From Atopomonas hussainii (GTDB lineage Bacteria > Pseudomonadota > Gammaproteobacteria > Pseudomonadales > Pseudomonadaceae): DNA of 64,000 bases. The position numbers and the translations under genes are program-made. The DNA lies in assembly GCF_900109735.1 (NCBI RefSeq), contig NZ_FOAS01000003.1, positions 1-64,000 of the forward strand. The letters are read 5' to 3'. The notes beneath the pieces are model-generated. The model worked only from the letters and a program-made list of their open reading frames with translations. It was not told the origin of the DNA and did no database searches. Positions 23,970 to 36,595 of the stretch are shown one piece after another (the stretch's first letter is position 1; each line of letters begins with the position of its first letter).

Positions 23970-24599
23970 ATGAGCGATAAGTCCAGCCTACCCACCGCCG
24001 AGCAAGCCTTACCCGGCCGGCCTACTCCCCTGCCGCTGCACAATGTGCATGCTGTTAACGGCAACCCGTTAATCGGCCCCTTTCCCGAGCACTTAGAGGT
24101 TGCACAGTTTGGCATGGGCTGTTTTTGGGGGGCCGAGCGGCGCTTCTGGCAGCAACCCGGCGTGTGGAGCACCGCAGCAGGCTATGCCGGCGGCTATACG
24201 CCAAACCCTACCTATGAAGAAACCTGCACCGGGCTAACCGGGCACACCGAAGTGGTACAGGTAGTGTTTGACCCGGGCAAAATCAGCTTTGCCGACTTGC
24301 TGACGCTGTTCTGGGAAGCCCACGACCCCACCCAAGGCATGCGCCAAGGCAACGACCGCGGCAGCCAATACCGCTCCGCGATCTATTGCCACACCCCAGC
24401 GCAATTACAAGCCGCCCAAGCCAGCGCCGCCGTTTTTGAAGCCGAACTGCGCCGCGCCGGCTTCGGCTCCATCACCACAGAAATCCGCGATAACGTGCCC
24501 TTTTATGCCGCCGAGGATTACCACCAGCAATACCTGCACAAGAACCCCGGCGGTTACTGTGGGCTGCGCGGTACGGGCGTGTGTTTTGGCGAAAGCTAA
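23970..24599 (+). CDS. msrA: Peptide-methionine (S)-S-oxide reductase
   Basis: A 209-residue repair enzyme reducing the S-epimer of methionine sulfoxide in proteins. The active site [13 protein letters not shown] with the catalytic Cys is followed by [26 protein letters not shown] and [17 protein letters not shown], which are diagnostic. GGAG is placed before the ATG (CCGAGGAGACTGAC). It follows dipA in the PA5017-PA5018 order. Confidence 0.96.
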
Positions 24600-24700
24600 G
24601 TGCAAAACCGCGCAACACCTCACTCGACAGGACAACGCGGCCAGCTAGACTAGGTCAGCCGCGCTCAGCCCGAGTGCGGCCCTACGACACGGAGTGTCTT

Positions 24701-25360
24701 ATGCAAAAAAGCCTTATCGGCGCGGCTATGCTTGCCGCCGCTTTTACCTCCAGCGCCTACGCCGAATCATCCCTCAAACTTTTCAGTGAGCCAGGGGACT
24801 ATATCGGTGGCGGTAAGCAATACAGCTACAGCGAACCTGCAGCGACTTTCCAATACACCGAGAACTACCACAAAGGCATTACCGTCAATATTAACGCGGG
24901 CAATGAGTGGTGGTCGTTGATCTTAGTCAGTGGCGACAAAACGCAACTCAAGCCCGGCGTGTATCTCAATGCCGAGCGCTTCCCATTTCAAAGTGCCGGT
25001 AAACCCGGCTTGAACTTCAGCGGTTCAGGCCGTGGCTGTAATACGCTCACCGGGCAATTCGAAGTACTCGAAGTGGGTTATGACGAAGCCGGCAAGCTAA
25101 AAAGCCTCGGGGTAAACTTTGAGCAGCACTGTGAAGGCGGAGTACCTGCTTTGTACGGCAGCCTGTACTTCAATTCGCTACCCGCAGTAGGGGCAAGCAC
25201 GCAGGGCGTTTCAGTACAGCGCGTCATTTGCCGTAACGTGACCACCGGGCAACGTGTTCGCTTTAACAGTGACGCGCCCACCTTTGACTGCCGCAAGCAG
25301 GGTTTACAGGTGAATACCGGGGATCGCGTCACCATTACCGTGCAAGGTGCTGCGTACTAA
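24701..25360 (+). CDS. Secreted beta-rich protein of unknown function
   Basis: 219 residues starting at ATG 24701 behind GGAG, with a clear signal peptide (MQKSLIGAAMLAAAFTSSAYA, cleavage after AYA). The mature part is rich in Gly, Tyr, Ser and Thr and probably all beta. Four cysteines could pair: RGCNTL, QHCEGG, VICRNV and FDCRKQ. The block NFEQHCEGGVPALYGSLYFNS resembles a motif I recall recurring in secreted proteins of unknown role (F-x-Q-x-C-E-G...L-x-G). It is not part of the remembered PA5018-PA5019 neighbourhood and could be a lineage-specific addition between msrA and rlmJ. Function unknown. Confidence 0.8.
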   Translation: MQKSLIGAAMLAAAFTSSAYAESSLKLFSEPGDYIGGGKQYSYSEPAATFQYTENYHKGITVNINAGNEWWSLILVSGDKTQLKPGVYLNAERFPFQSAGKPGLNFSGSGRGCNTLTGQFEVLEVGYDEAGKLKSLGVNFEQHCEGGVPALYGSLYFNSLPAVGASTQGVSVQRVICRNVTTGQRVRFNSDAPTFDCRKQGLQVNTGDRVTITVQGAAY

Positions 25361-26287: not shown

Positions 26288-26426
26288 ACAAACCTCATTG
26301 AGCAGGTGCGCATTGTAGCGCTGCCAGCTTAATTATCGCCCGCCATTCCCGCTTGCCATGATGATTTGCGCCCCTCTTGTGGTGGCGTACTCTGCCAAAA
26401 CTGACCCTCAACGAAGGCACGCACAC

Positions 26427-28229
26427 ATGGCCGACACCCTACTTTGCCGCCGTAACTTGGCGTTTGAACTGTACGAAATGCACAACGCCGAAGCGCTGTG
26501 CGAGCGCCCGCGGTTTGCCGAGCACAACCGCGAAACCTTCGACGCCGCCTTAGGCACCGCGCACAGCATCGCCCGTGATTTGTTCGCCCCGCACAATCGC
26601 AAAGGCGATGAGCACGAGCCGCAGTATGTGAATGGCGCCGCCGAGCTGATCCCAGAGGTCGCACCGGCGCTGACCGCGTTTATCGAAGCGGGTTTTTTAA
26701 ATGCCACGCGCGACTTCGAGGTCGGCGGCATGCAGCTGCCTAACTTGCTCTCGCAGGCCTGCTTTGCGCATTTTCAGTCGGCCAATATTGCCTCTAGCTC
26801 GTACGCCATGCTGACCATGGGCGCCAGTAATCTGATCGAAGCCTTTGGCAGCGCCGAGCAACAGCAGCGCTTTTTAACCCCAATGATCGAAGGCCGCTTC
26901 TTCGGCACCATGGCGCTCACCGAGCCGCATGCTGGCTCGTCCCTATCGGACATCCGCACCAAGGCCGAGCCCGCCGCCGATGGCAGCTACCGGATCAAAG
27001 GCAACAAGATTTTTATCTCCGGCGGCGATCAGCCGATCTCCGAGAACATCGTACACATGGTGCTCGCCAAGCTGCCCGACGCCCCAGCCGGGGTGAAGGG
27101 CATCAGCTTGTTTATCGTGCCCAAGTTTTTAGTCAACGACGACGGCAGCCTCGGCGCGCGTAACGATGTGGCGCTGGCGGGTTTGTTCCACAAAATGGGC
27201 TGGCGCGGCACCACCTCCACGGCGCTGAACTTTGGCGATAACGACAACTGCGTGGGTTACTTGGTCGGCAAGCCACACCACGGCTTGGCGTATATGTTCC
27301 AGATGATGAACGAAGCGCGCATCGGCGTCGGCATGGGCGCCACTATGCTTGGCTACGCCGGCTATTTGTATTCGCTGGATTACGCCCGCAACCGCCCACA
27401 GGGCCGCCACCCCGATGGCAAAAACCCGAGCAGCGCGCAGGTCAGCATCGTCGAACATGCCGATGTACGGCGTATGCTGCTCACCCAGAAAGCCTATGTC
27501 GAAGGCGCCTTCGATTTGGGCCTGCTCGGTGCGCGACTGTTTGATGACAGCCTGACCCTGCCGACTGAAGACGAGCGCCAGCAAGCATTGGAGCTGCTCG
27601 ACCTGCTCACGCCGATTATTAAATCGTGGCCGTCGGAGTTCTGCCTCAAGGCCAACGAGCTGGCGATACAAATCCTCGGCGGCCATGGCTACACCCGCGA
27701 ATACCCGGTGGAGCAGTACTACCGCGACAACCGCCTGAACCCCATCCACGAAGGCACGCACGGCATTCAGTCGCTGGACTTGCTCGGCCGCAAAGTATCG
27801 ATGAACGGCGGCGCGGCGCTGAAAGCCTTGCTCAAGCAAATCCACAGCACTTGCGCACAAGCGGCCGAAATGCCCGAGCTGAACGGTCTGCGTACGCCAC
27901 TGGAACAACTGGTCAACCGCTTACAAACGGTCACCTTGGCACTGCTCGGCGACTTAATAGCCGGCAAGGTCAACCAAGGCTTGGCCAACTCGGCGCTGTA
28001 CCTCAAAGCCTTTGGTCACGCGGTGGTCGGCTGGCGTTGGCTGGCGCAAGCGGTGGTCGCACAACAGGCTCTAAACACGGCTCAAGGCGACGACGTGGCT
28101 TTCTATCAGGGCAAGCTGCAAGCGGCACGCTACTTCCTCACCTGGGAAGTGCCCAGCTGCCAGCACGAACTGGCCCTACTGGAAGCGCGCGACGACACCT
28201 GTTTAGCCATGCAGGATGCGTGGTTCTAA
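26427..28229 (+). CDS. Acyl-CoA dehydrogenase (PA5020-like)
   Basis: A 600-residue FAD-dependent dehydrogenase of the long bacterial FadE-like type with a C-terminal extension. It forms the alpha-beta double bond of acyl-CoA in fatty-acid oxidation. Seen are [21 protein letters not shown] (FAD/substrate loop), [37 protein letters not shown] and the C-terminal [34 protein letters not shown] with the catalytic Glu region. The ATG at 26427 gives the normal N-terminus; the longer frame upstream is not needed. Divergent from rlmJ, as PA5020 is from PA5019. Confidence 0.92.
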
Positions 28230-28264
28230 TCGCCCCGCGCCCCACTTCGCACTGGCGCCGCTTC

Positions 28265-28283
28265 TAACCCTGCACTAGGGTTA
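28265..28283. promoter_or_regulatory. Perfect inverted repeat upstream of the tubulin-like gene
   Basis: TAACCCT-GCACT-AGGGTTA, 7-base arms, lies 36 bases after the acyl-CoA dehydrogenase stop and about 200 bases before the tubulin-like gene. There is no T-run, so it may be an operator or a stabilising hairpin. The rest of the 253-bp gap holds no gene I can support. Confidence 0.35.
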
Positions 28284-28482
28284 AACCTGATGCTTGCTTG
28301 AAAGCACGCACACCATTAGGTTTAGAGACAAGGCGTCAGTGCGAGGTGGCTTGTGTAGGAAACGCGTTTCACCCCTGTGAGCTGCTACTTATTTATCAGT
28401 GCAGCACCCCGGACGTTTTCTACCGCCATCACCCTCTGCCGGCTGCAATAACAAAAAGCTTGGCACACCCAAGGAGTAGGTG

Positions 28483-30627
28483 ATGGCAAAACAAGAAGAG
28501 CAAGGCACCGTCGAGGCGAGCCAAGACGACAACACCGTCGAAAAAACCAACAAAGCCAAAAGCGCCAGCAAGCGCAAAGTCAGCGCCCCAGAAACCCTGC
28601 CGGTGGATGGCCGCAAGCCGCTGTATTTTGTCGAGCGCGATCTGGAAGAAATTCTTCAGCACTTAGACGGCCTGCGCAGCGAAATTTACCCGCGCCCCGA
28701 TAGCGAAGAATTTATCCCCTCGGAAAACCACTTTCCCTCGGTGTGCTTGATTGGCCTGGGCCGCTGCGGTTCTAACATCGCGCTCGATGTGGCCAGCCTC
28801 GTTTACAACGCGCGAATGTTTTATCTAAACGAAGCGTTTAACGAAGAAAAAGCCCAGCAAGACCCCGAAGGCACCTCGCTACGCTGGATTCGCCGCCAGC
28901 TGCACATGCCGCGCAACAAGATTAATCCGGTGTATTTGATCGAGCCCATCGTGCTGCTCGGCGATTTGGACAAAGACATCAGCGGGCGCATTCGCCTCTC
29001 CACCCGCAATAATCAGAACAACTTCCTGCGCGACTACCGCAAGATGCAGGTCATGGACCTCTCGGAAGTTCACGCCGGCGGCGCCGGTAACGCGCCGATT
29101 TTGGGCCAGTACTTGGGCCGCATTATTCTGAATCGCGAGGCCGCGCAGTTCAGTCATGAAAGCTGGCGCCAATTGCACGCCTACCTCATCGACTCGTGCG
29201 GCATTAAAGCCAACCAATCGCGGCTGTATTTCTATATTTTCAGCGCCGGCGGCGGCACCGGCTCGGGCATGGCCTCAGAATTCGGCCTCGCCCAGCAAAA
29301 CGCCTATCTGACCAAAACCTTCGAAGTGGCCGAGCCAGAAGCCGAAGACAACCAGCGCCACTCGTTTGTCTTCGAGCCTATCTTCACCAGTGGCATCTGC
29401 ATTCTGCCCAATATCAGCGACGACAAGGTCGAGCTGTCCGAAGCGCTGCACATCAACGCCGGCCGTCTGCTGTGTAAATACCTGTCGGAGGAGTGGGACT
29501 TCTCCTACAACTACGAAGACGAACGCGAACGCGATGGCGTAGAAAACGTCATGCAGCGCATTCGCCCGTGGAACGCCATGATGCTGATCTCCAACGACAT
29601 CATGCGCTACGCCGAAGCCAGCGACGACGCGGTGACCCGCGACATCGACGTCAATTCGATGGAGCGATACGCCAACCAGTACATCTCGCAGCAGATCTTC
29701 AACATTCTTACTGCGCAAGCGGTGACCTCGGACTACGACGATCACTACTTCCGCCGCGCCGGCATCGACATTGGCGAAACCATTCGCCTCGACGCCAACG
29801 ACCTGTTTATGAGCCTCGCCGGCCCCGTGGCGATTGCCTACGCCGAAAGCGTGGTGCCAGACCTCAACGGCGAGAAGCGCAGCGGGCAGATCGATATCGA
29901 CGACCTGTTCTGCCGCTCCATCGACCTACCGCACTTTAACGAGCAAACACGCGCCATTGAGGGCATTAGCTTGCTGCCGGTGGAGGCAGGACACTACCGC
30001 GAGGCCCTGCAAAGCTTCCGCGAAGGTGACTACAACGCCGCCAGCCTGCGCGAGCTGCACTTCTTCAAGAACTGCTCGTCGGTGGTGTCGATTGTCTCGC
30101 TGCCCAAGGACTACAAGCTGTCGTACGTAGACCTCAACCGCCTGAAAACGCACCTGAATAACTTATTTCCCAACACCACGCTTAAGCGCTACGCGCTGGT
30201 AATTGGCGCCTCCGCCAACCTGTCGCTGACCACCTTAGTGGCGAAAAGTCCGTGCCTGTCGGATGACTTCCTCACCCTGCTGGTGGCCTATATCAAGCGC
30301 TGCTTCGCCAAGGACGAATACCGTTTTGACGAGCGCCTCGACCAACGCATTCTCGATTTGATTCAGAACGATGACTTCGACGAAGCGCAGATCGACGAAC
30401 TGGTCAACGCCTACGAAAACCCGGCGAAGATTCTCGACACCAACTGGTTTGCCATTAAGCCGATGTACGAGCGCAAGTACCGCGAGTTGATTCGCGATGA
30501 CGAACGCTTTACCTCGATTAACGACATCCGCCTCAGTGCCACCAACATCAAGAAGGCCATCCGTTACCTGCGCGAGATCTATCGCCACCGCATCAGCCGT
30601 ATCCGTATGCTGAGCCTTAGCCACTAA
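28483..30627 (+). CDS. Tubulin/FtsZ-superfamily GTPase-like protein, 714 residues
   Basis: Start at the ATG behind AAGGAG with six bases spacing. Residues 1-45 are charged and low in complexity. A tubulin-type nucleotide fold follows: T1-like CLIGLGRCGSN (88-98), T3-like HAGGAGNAP (197-205) and the tubulin signature SAGGGTGSG (254-262). Then comes MLISNDIMRYAE (368-378), which aligns with FtsZ IVIPNDRLLEV, a long H7-like helix (391-411), and IRLDANDLF (434-442), the T7 synergy loop with both Asp residues (437, 440) of FtsZ N-x-D-x-x-D. The C-terminal 270 residues are unlike FtsZ. No membrane segment or signal peptide. It best fits the bacterial tubulin-like group (Pfam Tubulin_2/FtsZl type), with polymerisation predicted but the role unknown. 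It stands alone between two terminator-separated units. Confidence 0.72.
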   Translation: MAKQEEQGTVEASQDDNTVEKTNKAKSASKRKVSAPETLPVDGRKPLYFVERDLEEILQHLDGLRSEIYPRPDSEEFIPSENHFPSVCLIGLGRCGSNIALDVASLVYNARMFYLNEAFNEEKAQQDPEGTSLRWIRRQLHMPRNKINPVYLIEPIVLLGDLDKDISGRIRLSTRNNQNNFLRDYRKMQVMDLSEVHAGGAGNAPILGQYLGRIILNREAAQFSHESWRQLHAYLIDSCGIKANQSRLYFYIFSAGGGTGSGMASEFGLAQQNAYLTKTFEVAEPEAEDNQRHSFVFEPIFTSGICILPNISDDKVELSEALHINAGRLLCKYLSEEWDFSYNYEDERERDGVENVMQRIRPWNAMMLISNDIMRYAEASDDAVTRDIDVNSMERYANQYISQQIFNILTAQAVTSDYDDHYFRRAGIDIGETIRLDANDLFMSLAGPVAIAYAESVVPDLNGEKRSGQIDIDDLFCRSIDLPHFNEQTRAIEGISLLPVEAGHYREALQSFREGDYNAASLRELHFFKNCSSVVSIVSLPKDYKLSYVDLNRLKTHLNNLFPNTTLKRYALVIGASANLSLTTLVAKSPCLSDDFLTLLVAYIKRCFAKDEYRFDERLDQRILDLIQNDDFDEAQIDELVNAYENPAKILDTNWFAIKPMYERKYRELIRDDERFTSINDIRLSATNIKKAIRYLREIYRHRISRIRMLSLSH

Positions 30628-30644
30628 ACCGTCGGCTAGAAACG

Positions 30645-30678
30645 ACAAAGCCCGCAGTATTCAACCTGCGGGCTTTGT
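30645..30678 (+). terminator. Terminator of the tubulin-like gene
   Basis: ACAAAGCCCGCAG and CTGCGGGCTTTGT form a perfect 13-base stem with an 8-base loop, 18 bases after the stop codon, followed by CACTTTTC. It separates this gene from the convergent small RNA. Confidence 0.88.
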
Positions 30679-30693
30679 CACTTTTCTCTGGGC

Positions 30694-30821
30694 AAAAAAG
30701 AAACCCCGCCGAGGCGGGGTTTGCAGACTAAAAATTCTGACAATCCTTGATCAGAGTGCCGTCCTAGCACTGTTCCCTTCAATCCCTTTGCTGTGTGTGC
30801 GTCCTGCACAACGTCCTTGTG
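30694..30821 (-). ncRNA. rsmY: RsmY-type regulatory small RNA
   Basis: On the minus strand, from about 30821, the RNA begins ACAAGGACGTTGTGCAGGACGC, close to the 5' end of Pseudomonas RsmY as I recall it. Six GGA motifs occur in about 90 bases (AAGGAC, CAGGAC, AAGGGAT, AAGGGAA, TAGGAC, AAGGAT). At least two are in loops of short stems (TGTGC-AGGAC-GCACA and AGTGC-TAGGACG-GCACT), the arrangement that binds and titrates RsmA/CsrA. It ends with AAACCCCGCC/GGCGGGGTTT and a T-run, about 128 nt in all. A -10-like TATCTT lies at 30833-30828 and a perfect GacA box about 65 bases upstream of the proposed +1. The +1 is estimated, not measured. Confidence 0.88.
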
Positions 30822-30877
30822 TGAGTAAAGATACGGGTTACACGGGGTGAGCAAAAGCAGCCATTGCCGCCACGTTG

Positions 30878-30895
30878 TGTAAGCCAAAACTTACA
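30878..30895. promoter_or_regulatory. GacA box (upstream activating sequence of rsmY)
   Basis: TGTAAGCCAAAACTTACA is a perfect 18-base match to the GacA-binding consensus TGTAAG-N6-CTTACA. Its centre is about 65 bases before the estimated rsmY start, the normal distance. The GacS/GacA system would activate rsmY from here. The divergent endA gene begins 110 bases to the right and might also be affected. Confidence 0.92.
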
Positions 30896-31004
30896 CGGCG
30901 TCAGCAAGAATAAAAGGCGCAGGTGTTTTCTAACTAAAAGCTCTGTTCTAGACTCAGTTCACACTTATAAAAATAAACAGATCAGCATTCATGCGAGGTC
31001 TACT

Positions 31005-31859: not shown

Positions 31860-33638
31860 TTAGAACTGCGCAGCGTCGAGCAGATACAGTGACTCGCTAC
31901 CGGCTTTAACCGATGCGGTCAGCGATTGCGTACGCGGCAGCAGGCGCGCGAAGAAGAAGCGCGCGGTGCCCAACTTGCTCACGTAGAACTCGTCCTGATC
32001 TTGCTTGGCCAGCGCAGTACGCGCCATCAATGCCCACATATAGGCATAGGCGGTGTAGCCAAACACTTGCAGGTACTCGACCGACGCCGCACCGATTTCG
32101 TTGGGGTTTTGCTTGGCTTGCGCCAGTACCCAGTTGGTCAGCTCGTCGAGGTTTTCTACCGCGGCCTTCAGCGGCGCGGTGAACTCGGTCAAATTGGCGT
32201 CAGCACCGGCGATGAAGGTTTTGATTTCATCGGCGAAGTGCTTGTAGAAGCTGCCACCGTTACCCACCACCTTACGCCCCATCAGGTCCAGCGACTGAAT
32301 GCCATTGGTGCCTTCGTAGATCTGGGTGATGCGGCAATCGCGAATCAGCTGCTCTTGGCCCCACTCACGAATGAAGCCGTGGCCGCCGAAAATTTGCTGG
32401 CCATGCACCGTGGTTTCCAGACCCATGTCGGTCAGGAAGGCCTTGGCAACCGGGGTCAGCAGTGCCACCAATTCTTCGGCGCGGGTAGCAACGGCTTTGT
32501 CTTCGCTGTACTTGGCAGTGTCCAGCTGCATAGCCACGTAGCTGGAGAAAGCACGGCCGCCTTCGTTCAGCGCTTTCATGGTCAGCAACATGCGGCGCAC
32601 GTCCGGATGCACGATGATCGGGTCGGCGGCCTTGTCTTTCGCCACCGGGCCAGTCGGCGCACGGCTCTGGATACGGTCACGAGCGTACTCAATGGCGTTC
32701 TGGTAAGAGCGCTCACCCAGCGACAAACCTTGGATGCCTACACCCAAACGCTCGTAGTTCATCATGGTGAACATGGCATTCAGGCCCTTGTTCACTTCAC
32801 CGATCAGGTAACCGGTAGCGCCATCGAAGTTCATCACACAGGTAGCCGAAGCCTTGATGCCCATCTTGTGTTCGATAGAGCCACAGCCCAAGGTGTTCTT
32901 CTCACCCAGCGAGCCATCGGCGTTGACCATCACTTTCGGCACCAGGAACAGCGAGATACCTTTCGGGCCAGCTGGCGCGTCAGGCAGCTTGGCCAGTACC
33001 AAGTGAATGATGTTTTCGGTCAGGTCGTGCTCACCGCCGGTGATGAAAATCTTCGTACCGGAGATTTTGTAGCTGCCATCGGCTTGCGGCTCGGCCTTAG
33101 TACGGATGATGCCCAAGTCGGTGCCGGCATGCGGCTCGGTCAAGCACATGGAGCCCGCCCACACGCCGGAGTACATGTTCGGCAGGTACTGCGCTTTCAG
33201 CTCTTCGCTGGCGTGGTTGAGGATCGACAGACAGGCGCCAGCGGTCAGCATCGGGTACAGACCGAACGACAGGTTGGCCGAGTTGACCATTTCTTCGACT
33301 TGCGCGCCGATCACCTTGGGCATGCCCATGCCGCCGAACTCCGGCGAGCCGCCAACACCCACCCAGCCGCCTTCGGCATAGGTGTTATAGGCTGCGGGGA
33401 AGCCGGCCGGGGTCTTCACCACGCCGTCAGTCCAGGAGCAGCCTTCTTCGTCACCGCTACGGTTTAGCGGAGCGATGGTGCCGGCCATGACTTTGCCGGC
33501 TTCTTCCAGAATGGCGCTGGCGGTTTCTTCATCCACCACCTCGGCCAGGCCTGGCAACTGTGCCCACAGCTTGGACACTTCAAAAACTTCATTGAGCACA
33601 AAGCGCATGTCGCGCAGCGGGGCCTGATAATCTGCCAT
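31860..33638 (-). CDS. Acyl-CoA dehydrogenase, 592 residues (PA0508/FadE2-like)
   Basis: An FAD-dependent acyl-CoA dehydrogenase of the large bacterial type. It starts MADYQAPLRDMRFVLNEVFEV, then MCLTEPHAGTDLGIIRTKAEP, KIFITGGEHDLTENIIHLVLA, GIQGLSLGERSYQNAIEYARDR and IFGGHGFIREWGQEQLIRDCRI. The pair with the next gene and the neighbouring bio operon match PA0506-PA0508. I recall PA0506 and PA0508 described as FadE enzymes for long and medium chains, so this one may prefer medium-chain acyl-CoA. Its stop codon abuts the repeat element. Confidence 0.92.
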   Translation of the reverse strand: MADYQAPLRDMRFVLNEVFEVSKLWAQLPGLAEVVDEETASAILEEAGKVMAGTIAPLNRSGDEEGCSWTDGVVKTPAGFPAAYNTYAEGGWVGVGGSPEFGGMGMPKVIGAQVEEMVNSANLSFGLYPMLTAGACLSILNHASEELKAQYLPNMYSGVWAGSMCLTEPHAGTDLGIIRTKAEPQADGSYKISGTKIFITGGEHDLTENIIHLVLAKLPDAPAGPKGISLFLVPKVMVNADGSLGEKNTLGCGSIEHKMGIKASATCVMNFDGATGYLIGEVNKGLNAMFTMMNYERLGVGIQGLSLGERSYQNAIEYARDRIQSRAPTGPVAKDKAADPIIVHPDVRRMLLTMKALNEGGRAFSSYVAMQLDTAKYSEDKAVATRAEELVALLTPVAKAFLTDMGLETTVHGQQIFGGHGFIREWGQEQLIRDCRITQIYEGTNGIQSLDLMGRKVVGNGGSFYKHFADEIKTFIAGADANLTEFTAPLKAAVENLDELTNWVLAQAKQNPNEIGAASVEYLQVFGYTAYAYMWALMARTALAKQDQDEFYVSKLGTARFFFARLLPRTQSLTASVKAGSESLYLLDAAQF

Positions 33639-33829: not shown

Positions 33830-35635
33830 TTAGTAGCCCAGCGCGAAGTCTTCTTCAGCCAAATCCATCAGGTTGCCAGCACCGGACAGCATAGCTTCAG
33901 CATGCATGCGGGTACGCGGCAGGATACGGTCGAAGTAGAACTTAGCGGTCTGCAGCTTAGCCTTGTAGAAGGCCTCTTCGCTGGTGCCGGCTGCCAGCTT
34001 CTCAGCTGCCAAGCGCGCCATGTCAGCCCAGAAGTAAGCCAAGCAGGCGTAACCGGAGTACATCAGGTAGTCCACCGAGGCGGCACCGACTTCTTCGCGG
34101 TCTTTCATCGCGGCCATACCAACCTTCATGGTCAGATCGCCCCACTCTTTGTTCAACGGCGCCAGCTTAGCCAGCAACGGCTTGATCGCTTCGTTGCCTT
34201 CGTTGGCCTGGATGAACTTGTGCACGATCTTGGTGAAGCCTTTCAGGGCTTCGCCTTGGGTCATCAGAACCTTACGACCCAGCAGGTCGATCGCCTGAAC
34301 ACCGGTGGTGCCTTCGTACAGCATAGAGATACGGCTGTCGCGGACGTTCTGCTCCATGCCCCACTCAGCGATAAAGCCGTGGCCGCCGTAGATTTGTACG
34401 CCGTGGTTAGCAGCTTCGAAACCCACTTCAGTCATGAAGGCTTTAGCAATCGGCGTCATGAAGGCCAGCAGCGCATCGGCTTGCTTAACGGCTTCTTCGT
34501 CTTTGCTGTACTTAACCACGTCAACCAGCTTGGCGGTGAAGTACACCATCGCACGGTTACCTTCAGCGAAGGCTTTCATGGTCAGCAGCATACGACGCAC
34601 GTCTGGGTGCACGATGATCGGGTCAGCGGCTTTTTCCGGCGCTTTCGGGCCAGTCAGCGAACGCATTTGCAGACGCTCACGAGCGTACTTCAGACCACCT
34701 TGGAAACCGATTTCGGCGTGCGCCAAACCTTGCAGAGCAGTACCCAGACGGGCAGTGTTCATGAAGGTGAACATGCAGTTCAGACCTTTGTTGGCGGGGC
34801 CGATCAGATAACCGGTGGCGCCATCAAAGTTCATCACGCAAGTAGCGTTACCGTGGATACCCATCTTGTGCTCGATCGAGCCACAAGAAACAGCGTTACG
34901 CTCGCCGGCATCGCCCGCAGCGTTCGGCAGAAACTTCGGCACGATGAACAGGGAGATACCCTTAGTGCCAGCCGGTGCGTCGGGCAGACGCGCCAGTACG
35001 ATGTGCACGATGTTCTCAGACATGTCGTGCTCACCGGCAGAAATAAAGATCTTGGTGCCGGTCACTTTGTAAGAGCCGTCAGCCTGCGGCTCGGCCTTGG
35101 TGCGCAGCATGCCCAAGTCAGTACCGCAATGCGGCTCGGTCAAGCACATGGTGCCGGTCCACTCGCCGGTTACCAGCTTGGTCAGGTAGGCATGCTTCTG
35201 CTCGTCGGTACCGTGCTCGGCCAGCGTATTCATAGCGCCGTGCGACAGACCTGGGTACATGCCCCACGACCAGTTGGATTCACCAACCAGCTCGCTGATC
35301 ACCAGACCCAGCGACTCTGGCAGGCCTTGACCACCATGCTCAACAGAGTGAGCCAAGCTCGGCCAGCCGCCTTCAACGTACTGCTGGTAAGCTGCTTTAA
35401 AACCAGTCGGGGTTTTTACGCCGTCTTCCGACCAAGTACAGCCTTCGAGGTCACCAACGCGGTTCAGCGGAGCAAGAACCTGCTCACAGAACTTAGCGCC
35501 TTCCTCAAGAATGGCGTTGCACATGTCCGGGGTGGCTTCTTCGCAACCTGGCAGGCTTGCGTAGTGGGCTTCATAGCCCAGCAATTCGTCACGTACGAAG
35601 CGGATATCACGCAAGGGAGCCTTGTACTCGGGCAT
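33830..35635 (-). CDS. Acyl-CoA dehydrogenase, 601 residues (PA0506/FadE1-like)
   Basis: A second large acyl-CoA dehydrogenase, clearly paralogous to the 592-residue protein. It starts [25 protein letters not shown] at ATG 35633-35635; a longer open frame upstream has no family resemblance. Motifs: [64 protein letters not shown] and [23 protein letters not shown]. By analogy with PA0506 it may act on long-chain acyl-CoA. The 168-bp region upstream holds its promoter and no gene. Confidence 0.92.
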
Positions 35636-35803
35636 ATCGGTAAACCTCAGAGATTGAGTCCTTGGAAGACGAACGCACCATGCGTTCGCGTCTGGGGATG
35701 GGCGGTGCCACCCCATCCGGCGCTAGAACTTTTTCAGCGTAGCAGGCCGGATATCAAACAGGCGTTTGAAACATACGTTTACGCCAGCAAACTTGTCAAG
35801 CCC

Positions 35804-36595
35804 TCAGGCCTCAGCACTGAAACCGACACCCTCAGCGGGCGATAACGCCGACAGGCGTCGGTACAAGGTTAAATCAAACGGCGAGCGAGTTAAGCGCTCG
35901 CTTTGCTCACGGTCTTGCTGGCGTTGCTGATCATCTTCTTCGGCCGCTAAACGATCGGCTTCGCGCTGCTCTTGCGCCTGCACTTGCTCGTTGCGGTTTT
36001 TCTCCGCCAGCTCGGCACGCGCCTCAGTCAGCGCCGCCTGCGCTTGCGCGGCAATACGTAAGTCGGCCGAGGACGGCTCCGCCGGTGCCAACGCGGCACG
36101 CAGCACCTGCTGCATTTTGGCTAACGTAGCCTCGGGGTCGCCATTAACCGGCGAAGCATCAATCGACACTTCGCCCGCAACGGCATAGCTACGCCCATCC
36201 GGGCCGCGCTTAAAGGTGTAGGACGGCGCGCCGGCATATTGCCCACCCACCGCCGCATGCGCTTGCTCGTGGGCACGCACTTCGGCATCGCGCGCAGATA
36301 AACGGCTGATCTCTTGCTGATCCTTTTGCTGCTGCTCAGCGTCTTGCTGATCGCGCACCTTGGCTTCTTGCGCTTCTTGCTCCTGCTGAGCGCGCAGCTG
36401 TTCAGCTTGAGATTGCTCGCGCTGCGCACGCCCCTGCTCGTCCGGCGAGCGCGCAGAGCCCAGCGCCGCACTGCCTTCATTCACTGGTGGCAGCGTGGTT
36501 TGGCTGGGATCAGCAATCACAGGGGCTTGCGTAGTGCGTACCGGCGCAACCGCTACGCTTTGCACAGGCAGCGCCGGGAGCGGCGAGACGTTCAT
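35804..36595 (-). CDS. SprA-related putative zinc metalloprotease-like protein
   Basis: 263 residues in three parts: a Pro/Ala/Gln-rich N-terminus, a long charged Gln/Glu/Arg coiled-coil-like stretch, and a conserved core EVRAHEQAHAAVGGQYAGAP then SYTFKRGPDGRSYAVAGEVSID. HEQAH is an HExxH zinc motif, and the core fits the SprA-related family. A second charged, coiled region follows. No signal peptide is evident. I know no substrate or partner. It precedes the small PA0505-like gene in the same direction; both are probably co-expressed. A catalytic role is inferred only from the motif. Confidence 0.72.
   Translation of the reverse strand: MNVSPLPALPVQSVAVAPVRTTQAPVIADPSQTTLPPVNEGSAALGSARSPDEQGRAQREQSQAEQLRAQQEQEAQEAKVRDQQDAEQQQKDQQEISRLSARDAEVRAHEQAHAAVGGQYAGAPSYTFKRGPDGRSYAVAGEVSIDASPVNGDPEATLAKMQQVLRAALAPAEPSSADLRIAAQAQAALTEARAELAEKNRNEQVQAQEQREADRLAAEEDDQQRQQDREQSERLTRSPFDLTLYRRLSALSPAEGVGFSAEA

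Follow-up and report, generated by a model that had tools for sequence, protein, structure and literature searches.

The tubulin-like gene of the window (the whole 64,000-nucleotide stretch of Atopomonas hussainii DNA analysed here) encodes a protein that fits the FtsZl2 family and is probably a GTP-binding member of the tubulin/FtsZ superfamily, assembling into a head-to-tail polymer that serves as an accessory, non-division filament beside FtsZ. GTP binding, polymerisation and role are what we infer for this protein; as FtsZl2 works beside ordinary FtsZ, it probably forms an accessory filament rather than the division ring. A filament had been proposed by the initial annotation, and it stands as a prediction; the available part of PMC2875224 reaches the same conclusion for FtsZl2. 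If FtsZl2 polymerises, a tubulin cytoskeleton exists in its carriers in addition to that of FtsZ, and the change of the T7 Asn to Arg is a natural variant of the catalytic site shared by the superfamily. Of the species sampled in one Pseudomonas-like genus, roughly two in three carry FtsZl2.

The gene and its family

The gene lies at 28483..30627 (+) and, as annotated at the outset, stays open for 714 codons plus the stop. A likely ribosome-binding site, AAGGAG (28471..28476, +), precedes ATG 28483 with a 6 nt spacer, and the homologous locus of Atopomonas sediminilitoris (L004) has AAGGAG at identical spacing before a GTG start codon. The gene has its own intrinsic terminator, as claimed earlier, with a 14-pair stem (30644..30679, +); a simple scan of 28200-30900 returned no sigma-70-like promoter. 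It is present in a single copy in its genome (assembly 3.68 Mb, 99.95% complete), on a 278,958-base contig among ordinary chromosomal neighbours, and its GC content is 0.555-0.583 in the 2-kb windows covering it (surrounding range 0.545-0.630).

FtsZl2 was described from sequence, with PFL_1302 of P. fluorescens Pf-5 as the type member (Makarova & Koonin, 2010; PMC2875224, available part). There the family is proteobacterial, encoded by a lone gene beside FtsZ, and keeps T1, T4, T6 and T7 with a GGGTG(S/T)G motif, while its C-terminal region of about 300 residues is mixed alpha/beta and like no other family, and a coiled-coil domain is lacking; FtsZl2 was predicted to form filaments, and a direct role in division was thought unlikely. 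In the features compared, no difference from this description was found. The GGGTG(S/T)G G-box is present in 105/105 family rows, T1, T6 and T7 are kept in the same rows (L92 of T1 in 103; equivalence to the FtsZ loops by eye), and the equivalence of T1, T3 and T4 to FtsZ appears also in a profile alignment. After T7 the window protein has 274 residues, modelled as mixed alpha/beta, and the gene has no constant partner, the commonest adjacent family occurring in 20/78 stretches. Among the best 80 of 471 loci, Pseudomonas homologues are 66-71% identical to the window protein (P. chlororaphis 69%). The protein thus fits FtsZl2, a family already known rather than new. The word 'undescribed' in the initial annotation therefore holds for the role, in the literature searched, but not for the family, known since 2010; its family guess, Tubulin_2/FtsZl, fits as regards FtsZl2, whereas Tubulin_2, whose cut-off is 27 bits, scores 16.7. 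Among the matches listed in the open-access literature there was no experimental study of FtsZl2 function. In one other paper, as far as its available part goes, 'FtsZl2' denotes the FtsZ L272E mutant and not the family, and a literature look for a link to unexplained cryo-tomography filaments gave nothing usable.

The related FtsZl1, which we infer to be Pfam Tubulin_2 (PF13809), shares the T4 loop with FtsZl2 and is likewise a large, divergent member of the superfamily. However, FtsZl1 has no recognisable T6-H7, in most cases has a coiled coil and belongs to operons that also encode vWA proteins and kinases (PMC2875224, available part), whereas the window gene keeps T7 and none of the eight neighbouring ORFs scanned is a vWA, kinase or GTPase gene. 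The Tubulin_2 group is called FtsZ-like and set aside in the available part of PMC9871819. Three genomes of the phylum encode proteins above the PF13809 cut-off in frames of 1111-1540 residues (L137, L138, L139), which are presumably of the FtsZl1 kind.

Superfamily evidence from sequence profiles

At E 0.1 the sole Pfam matches of the window protein are Tubulin (PF00091; E 0.004, 17.9 bits against a curated cut-off of 33) and Tubulin_2 (PF13809; E 0.0047, against the curated cut-off given above), both below cut-off; NCBIfam and a PDB sequence search returned no match to it. At E up to 0.5, both Pfam families match every one of the 47 family members in the scan, with best E-values of 0.00023 (Tubulin) and 0.0013 (Tubulin_2); one family alignment is a hand-made selection of 47 diverse rows. 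Since these weak matches recur in 47/47 members and the motifs are kept in 105/105 rows, the loops and superfamily matches are more than chance, and the earlier placement in the tubulin/FtsZ superfamily stands. Searched the other way, PF00091 at E 0.1 recovered from the own genome FtsZ only and not the FtsZl2 protein, and PF13809 at E 0.01 matched nothing in three carriers, namely the own genome, G029 and G575.

In hhalign comparisons with 31 FtsZ sequences, T1, T3 and T4 are paired correctly, at a statistically weak level. Profile against profile, the GTPase half matches FtsZ with P 0.0066, the best of 38 decoy families reaching 0.011; the C-terminal half gives no signal against FtsZ profiles (P 0.21-0.54; decoys reach 0.043 on the C-terminal part of FtsZ). 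Two further profile hits were read as chance: ribosomal protein L23 for the C-terminal end (E 0.36) and a leucine-rich repeat protein for the last 283 residues (E 0.074). A by-eye likeness to tubulin H11-H12 near residues 600-620 was dropped, as the PDB profile search listed no tubulin.

Conservation of the tubulin-type loops

Conservation was counted over 105 aligned family rows, the window protein included; the rows are close relatives and non-independent, with an effective number of about 2 at 62% identity. The set includes five loci that the first family alignment was without (L033, L052, L058, L075 and L079), while L085, L093 and L105, which duplicate the rows of the window, L002 and L003, were left out. 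The T1 loop GLGRCGSN (residues 91-98; 28753..28776, +) is invariant at 7/8 positions, with L92 in 103/105 rows. The T3-like HAGGAGNAPILG (residues 197-208; 29071..29106, +), which the profile alignment sets opposite T3 of FtsZ, is invariant bar A201 (101/105) and contains GGAGNAP at 199-205. The T4 loop (G-box) SAGGGTGSG (residues 254-262; 29242..29268, +), the T6-like LISND (residues 368-372; 29584..29598, +), equated with FtsZ by eye, and the T7 loop RLDAND (residues 435-440; 29785..29802, +) are each found in 105/105 rows. A putative H7 core helix was assigned by eye to residues 397-414 (29671..29724, +). The five motifs reported by the initial annotation, GLGRCGSN, GGAGNAP, SAGGGTGSG, LISND and LDAND (436-440), were all located where it had placed them, and the conservation of T4 and T7 in homologues, which it had proposed as a check, proved complete.

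The FtsZ T7 motif is NxDxxD. In a gapless by-eye alignment with NVDFAD of the own FtsZ, D437 and D440 correspond to both T7 Asp, but R435 replaces the Asn, so that RLDAND has the Asp pair of an FtsZ-type T7 and not its Asn. Both catalytic Asp, said earlier to be intact, occur in 105/105 rows, and so does the Arg.

Overall, 289/714 residues are invariant across the 105 rows. The most variable parts are the charged N-terminal tail (residues 1-43; 28483..28611, +), with a mean majority-residue frequency of 0.41, residues 44-83, the insert at 112-148, the loops at 281-294, 344-357 and 458-471, and residues 613-646. The window protein is 61-71% identical to six homologues from other families and orders; the own FtsZ is 54-71% identical to seven others, a similar range, which suggests that the whole FtsZl2 chain is under strong constraint.

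Predicted structure

Structure prediction, another check proposed by the initial annotation, was favourable for the C-terminal half; the full-length AlphaFold2 model (78 family rows), however, reached only pLDDT 41, with the GTPase half not folded, likely because the family diversity noted above is low. Among the matches listed in fold searches with this model, neither FtsZ nor tubulin chains occur, which, at pLDDT 41, is no evidence against a tubulin fold. A tubulin GTPase fold is suggested mainly by the motifs, and the model of the C-terminal domain also favours it.

That model covers residues 417-714 (298 residues; pLDDT 61, pTM 0.53) and was built without templates or FtsZ rows from 61 family rows, the 105-row set minus rows at least 97% identical to a kept row. 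It is mixed alpha/beta overall and runs, past residue 499, through helix, strand, helix, strand, strand, an order of main elements that we take to be that of the FtsZ C-terminal domain. VIA-align 2 placed FtsZ first (8gzv_A, Z 7.1, 85 residues, 2.4 Å; a Z below 8 may reflect a common arrangement), with 1ofu_A (P. aeruginosa SulA:FtsZ) at Z 6.9. The PDB is rich in FtsZ/tubulin entries, and 48/50 of the matches listed are FtsZ, TubZ (3j4s, Z 5.8; 2xkb, Z 5.6) or tubulin complexes, the remaining two being IspF at Z 5.5. After trimming of the low-confidence stretches, FtsZ of E. coli (8gzx_A) scores Z 7.1, model residues 52-174 (protein 468-590) lying on FtsZ 232-316, just after T7. Foldseek alone gave no match with E < 0.001, other folds (SiiA, 0.028) coming ahead of the best FtsZ (0.19). 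By eye, residues 531-587 align to FtsZ S8-H10-S9-S10, an alignment unsupported by sequence profiles and supported by the structure model.

On the strength of a medium-confidence AlphaFold2 model and VIA-align, residues about 447-590 (29821..30252, +) thus probably resemble the FtsZ/tubulin C-terminal domain. They are followed by a helical C-terminal extension (residues about 591-714; 30253..30624, +), with model helices and 39/124 invariant residues. The earlier view of a 270-residue C-terminal part unlike FtsZ accordingly gives way to a predicted FtsZ-like domain with only about 125 residues extra. This model and the Arg at the T7 Asn position are new relative to 2010; if the assignment is true, the statement made then that the region resembles no other family is revised.

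The window protein and the own FtsZ (G000:C36) are alike in the order of the T loops and in the predicted C-terminal domain. They differ in length (714 versus 396 aa) and in T7 (RLDAND versus NVDFAD), and the window protein has inserts and the helical extension and falls below the PF00091 cut-off.

Proposed mechanism

From N to C terminus, the chain would consist of the GTPase domain and its inserts, then T7, then a C-terminal domain of FtsZ type and lastly a helical end of ~125 residues, and head-to-tail polymerisation of such subunits is the likeliest mechanism. One subunit would hold GTP in a pocket formed by T1, T3, T4 and T6; T7 of the next would supply Asp437 and Asp440 to this GTP, and the resulting hydrolysis would destabilise the filament. 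Lateral or partner contacts would fall to the C-terminal extension and to the tail of variable sequence. Instead of forming the division ring, such a filament would probably serve positioning, cell shape or the organisation of the membrane.

Some of these features also bear on another reading, in which a GTP-binding protein of tubulin fold forms no filaments and works as a nucleotide-switched monomer or small oligomer, its inserts, T7 Arg and extension blocking or replacing assembly. Arg in place of the T7 Asn in 105/105 rows, loop spacing longer than in the own FtsZ (by eye) and the extra helical end of the model would all agree with this; we nevertheless consider it unlikely. Both T7 Asp and the entire loop are invariant, and the C-terminal domain, which in tubulin/FtsZ carries half of the longitudinal contact, is apparently present in the model. 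Furthermore, all superfamily members characterised by 2010 form filaments, according to the available part of PMC2875224.

Extended beyond the accessory filament preferred here, the proposal would be that many Gammaproteobacteria have a second, division-independent tubulin filament system, partly spread by horizontal transfer, with a complete tubulin core, a helical domain that decorates the filament and an Arg-modified T7, in which the invariant Arg of RLDAND could play the part of an arginine finger towards the GTP of the adjacent subunit. We put this forward tentatively, at clearly less than even chances.

Distribution and horizontal transfer

In tblastn searches of genome contigs, 471 stretches encode a relative, of which the best 80 were kept. 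These include Pseudomonas, Rheinheimera, Alkalimonas, Alishewanella, Paraglaciecola, Marinobacter, Cellvibrio and other genera and are Pseudomonadota by title, with origin labels for 75; the genome samples stayed inside this phylum. The closest named homologue among the matches listed is that of A. sediminilitoris (90%). FtsZl2 is carried by 3/57 genomes of relatives, 16/293 of the order, 2/369 of the class and 5/299 of the phylum, counts that include the own genome where drawn. Elsewhere it occurs in 1/3 genomes of the order of G092, 1/200 of the order of G840 and 3/6 of the family of G1257, and in the genus of G029, read as Pseudomonas-like because G029's copy groups with P. chlororaphis, in 130/199, two of these being partial or split matches. 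The distribution is thus patchy. Two copies of this Pseudomonas-like genus are possibly broken: G490:C18:346769-347800 matches only positions 380-723, and G498:C620:113-2286 matches in two overlapping pieces.

These counts bear on the idea that FtsZl2 forms no structure of its own and modulates the Z ring by co-assembling with FtsZ or capping it. FtsZ is nearly always available for such a role (of 60 genomes sampled in the phylum, 59 have PF00091), and the two proteins probably have similar folds. However, FtsZl2 is patchily distributed, with 130/199 genomes in one genus, the FtsZl2 and FtsZ genes lie on different contigs in the own genome, and a direct role in division was judged unlikely in 2010 (PMC2875224, available part), so that we regard this idea as quite improbable beside a separate accessory filament.

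A careful tree was built from 35 rows, those left of the 105 once any row at least 93% identical to a retained one is removed. In it, the copies from the window and from A. sediminilitoris cluster with Corallincola (100/99) and not with Pseudomonas. Neiella joins the Atopomonas-Corallincola group in a quick tree (100), a point that the careful tree does not decide; tree root and branch lengths are unsure, and L003 is a long branch. Holding the Atopomonas copies with the Pseudomonas rows was rejected without three nested rows (p-AU 4e-6) and with them (far smaller), in one-clade tests whose groups were chosen after tree inspection. The grouping with Corallincola instead of Pseudomonas suggests that the Atopomonas lineage acquired FtsZl2 horizontally.

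Patchiness and tree evidence of transfer would also suit a domesticated segregation tubulin of the TubZ/PhuZ type, which are plasmid and phage genes. This origin is already disfavoured and is highly improbable: tblastn found no homologue in 72,556 plasmid records or in 50,697 phage records, none of 85 viral-contig candidates was confirmed as an FtsZl2 homologue, and the neighbourhoods are chromosomal and common to related species.

Genomic neighbourhood

The eight adjacent ORFs scanned are ordinary metabolic, repair or signalling genes, or are unmatched. In A. sediminilitoris (L004) the gene has RlmJ and acyl-CoA dehydrogenase genes upstream and endonuclease I and acyl-CoA dehydrogenase genes downstream, the same families as in the window; the synteny break reported by the initial annotation is therefore absent in this comparison. 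Its description of a lone gene with no obvious partner agrees with the neighbour clusters, in which no adjacent family exceeds 20/78 stretches (83 stretches, with the gene recognised in 78; L033, L052, L058, L075 and L079 not counted). The commonest adjacent family, ETF-quinone oxidoreductase (20/78), is restricted to Rheinheimera, Alkalimonas, Arsukibacterium and three records without a genus, and the second is MHYT-GGDEF-EAL (12/78); each was named by Pfam from one representative. As these adjacencies track related genera, they were read as synteny and the two families rejected as partners; conservation of any neighbour stops at the limits of such groups of genera. In L063, L069, L077, L078 and L083, all Pseudomonas/Ectopseudomonas, a gene of the MHYT-GGDEF-EAL type (726-728 aa) lies 58-71 nt downstream of FtsZl2 on the same strand; other Pseudomonas have MHYT-GGDEF-EAL just upstream, and the arrangement is possibly only synteny.

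In the window, a 259-aa ORF at 24581-25360 (+), with no above-cut-off Pfam match and no NCBIfam match, overlaps the end of msrA (23970-24599) by 19 nt. Three acyl-CoA dehydrogenase genes lie within 10 kb around the FtsZl2 gene, at 26358-28229 (+), 31860-33638 (-) and 33830-35716 (-). Opposite the last two are ORFs of 513 aa (31926-33467, +) and 647 aa (33902-35845, +), which are probably shadow ORFs of GC-rich genes.
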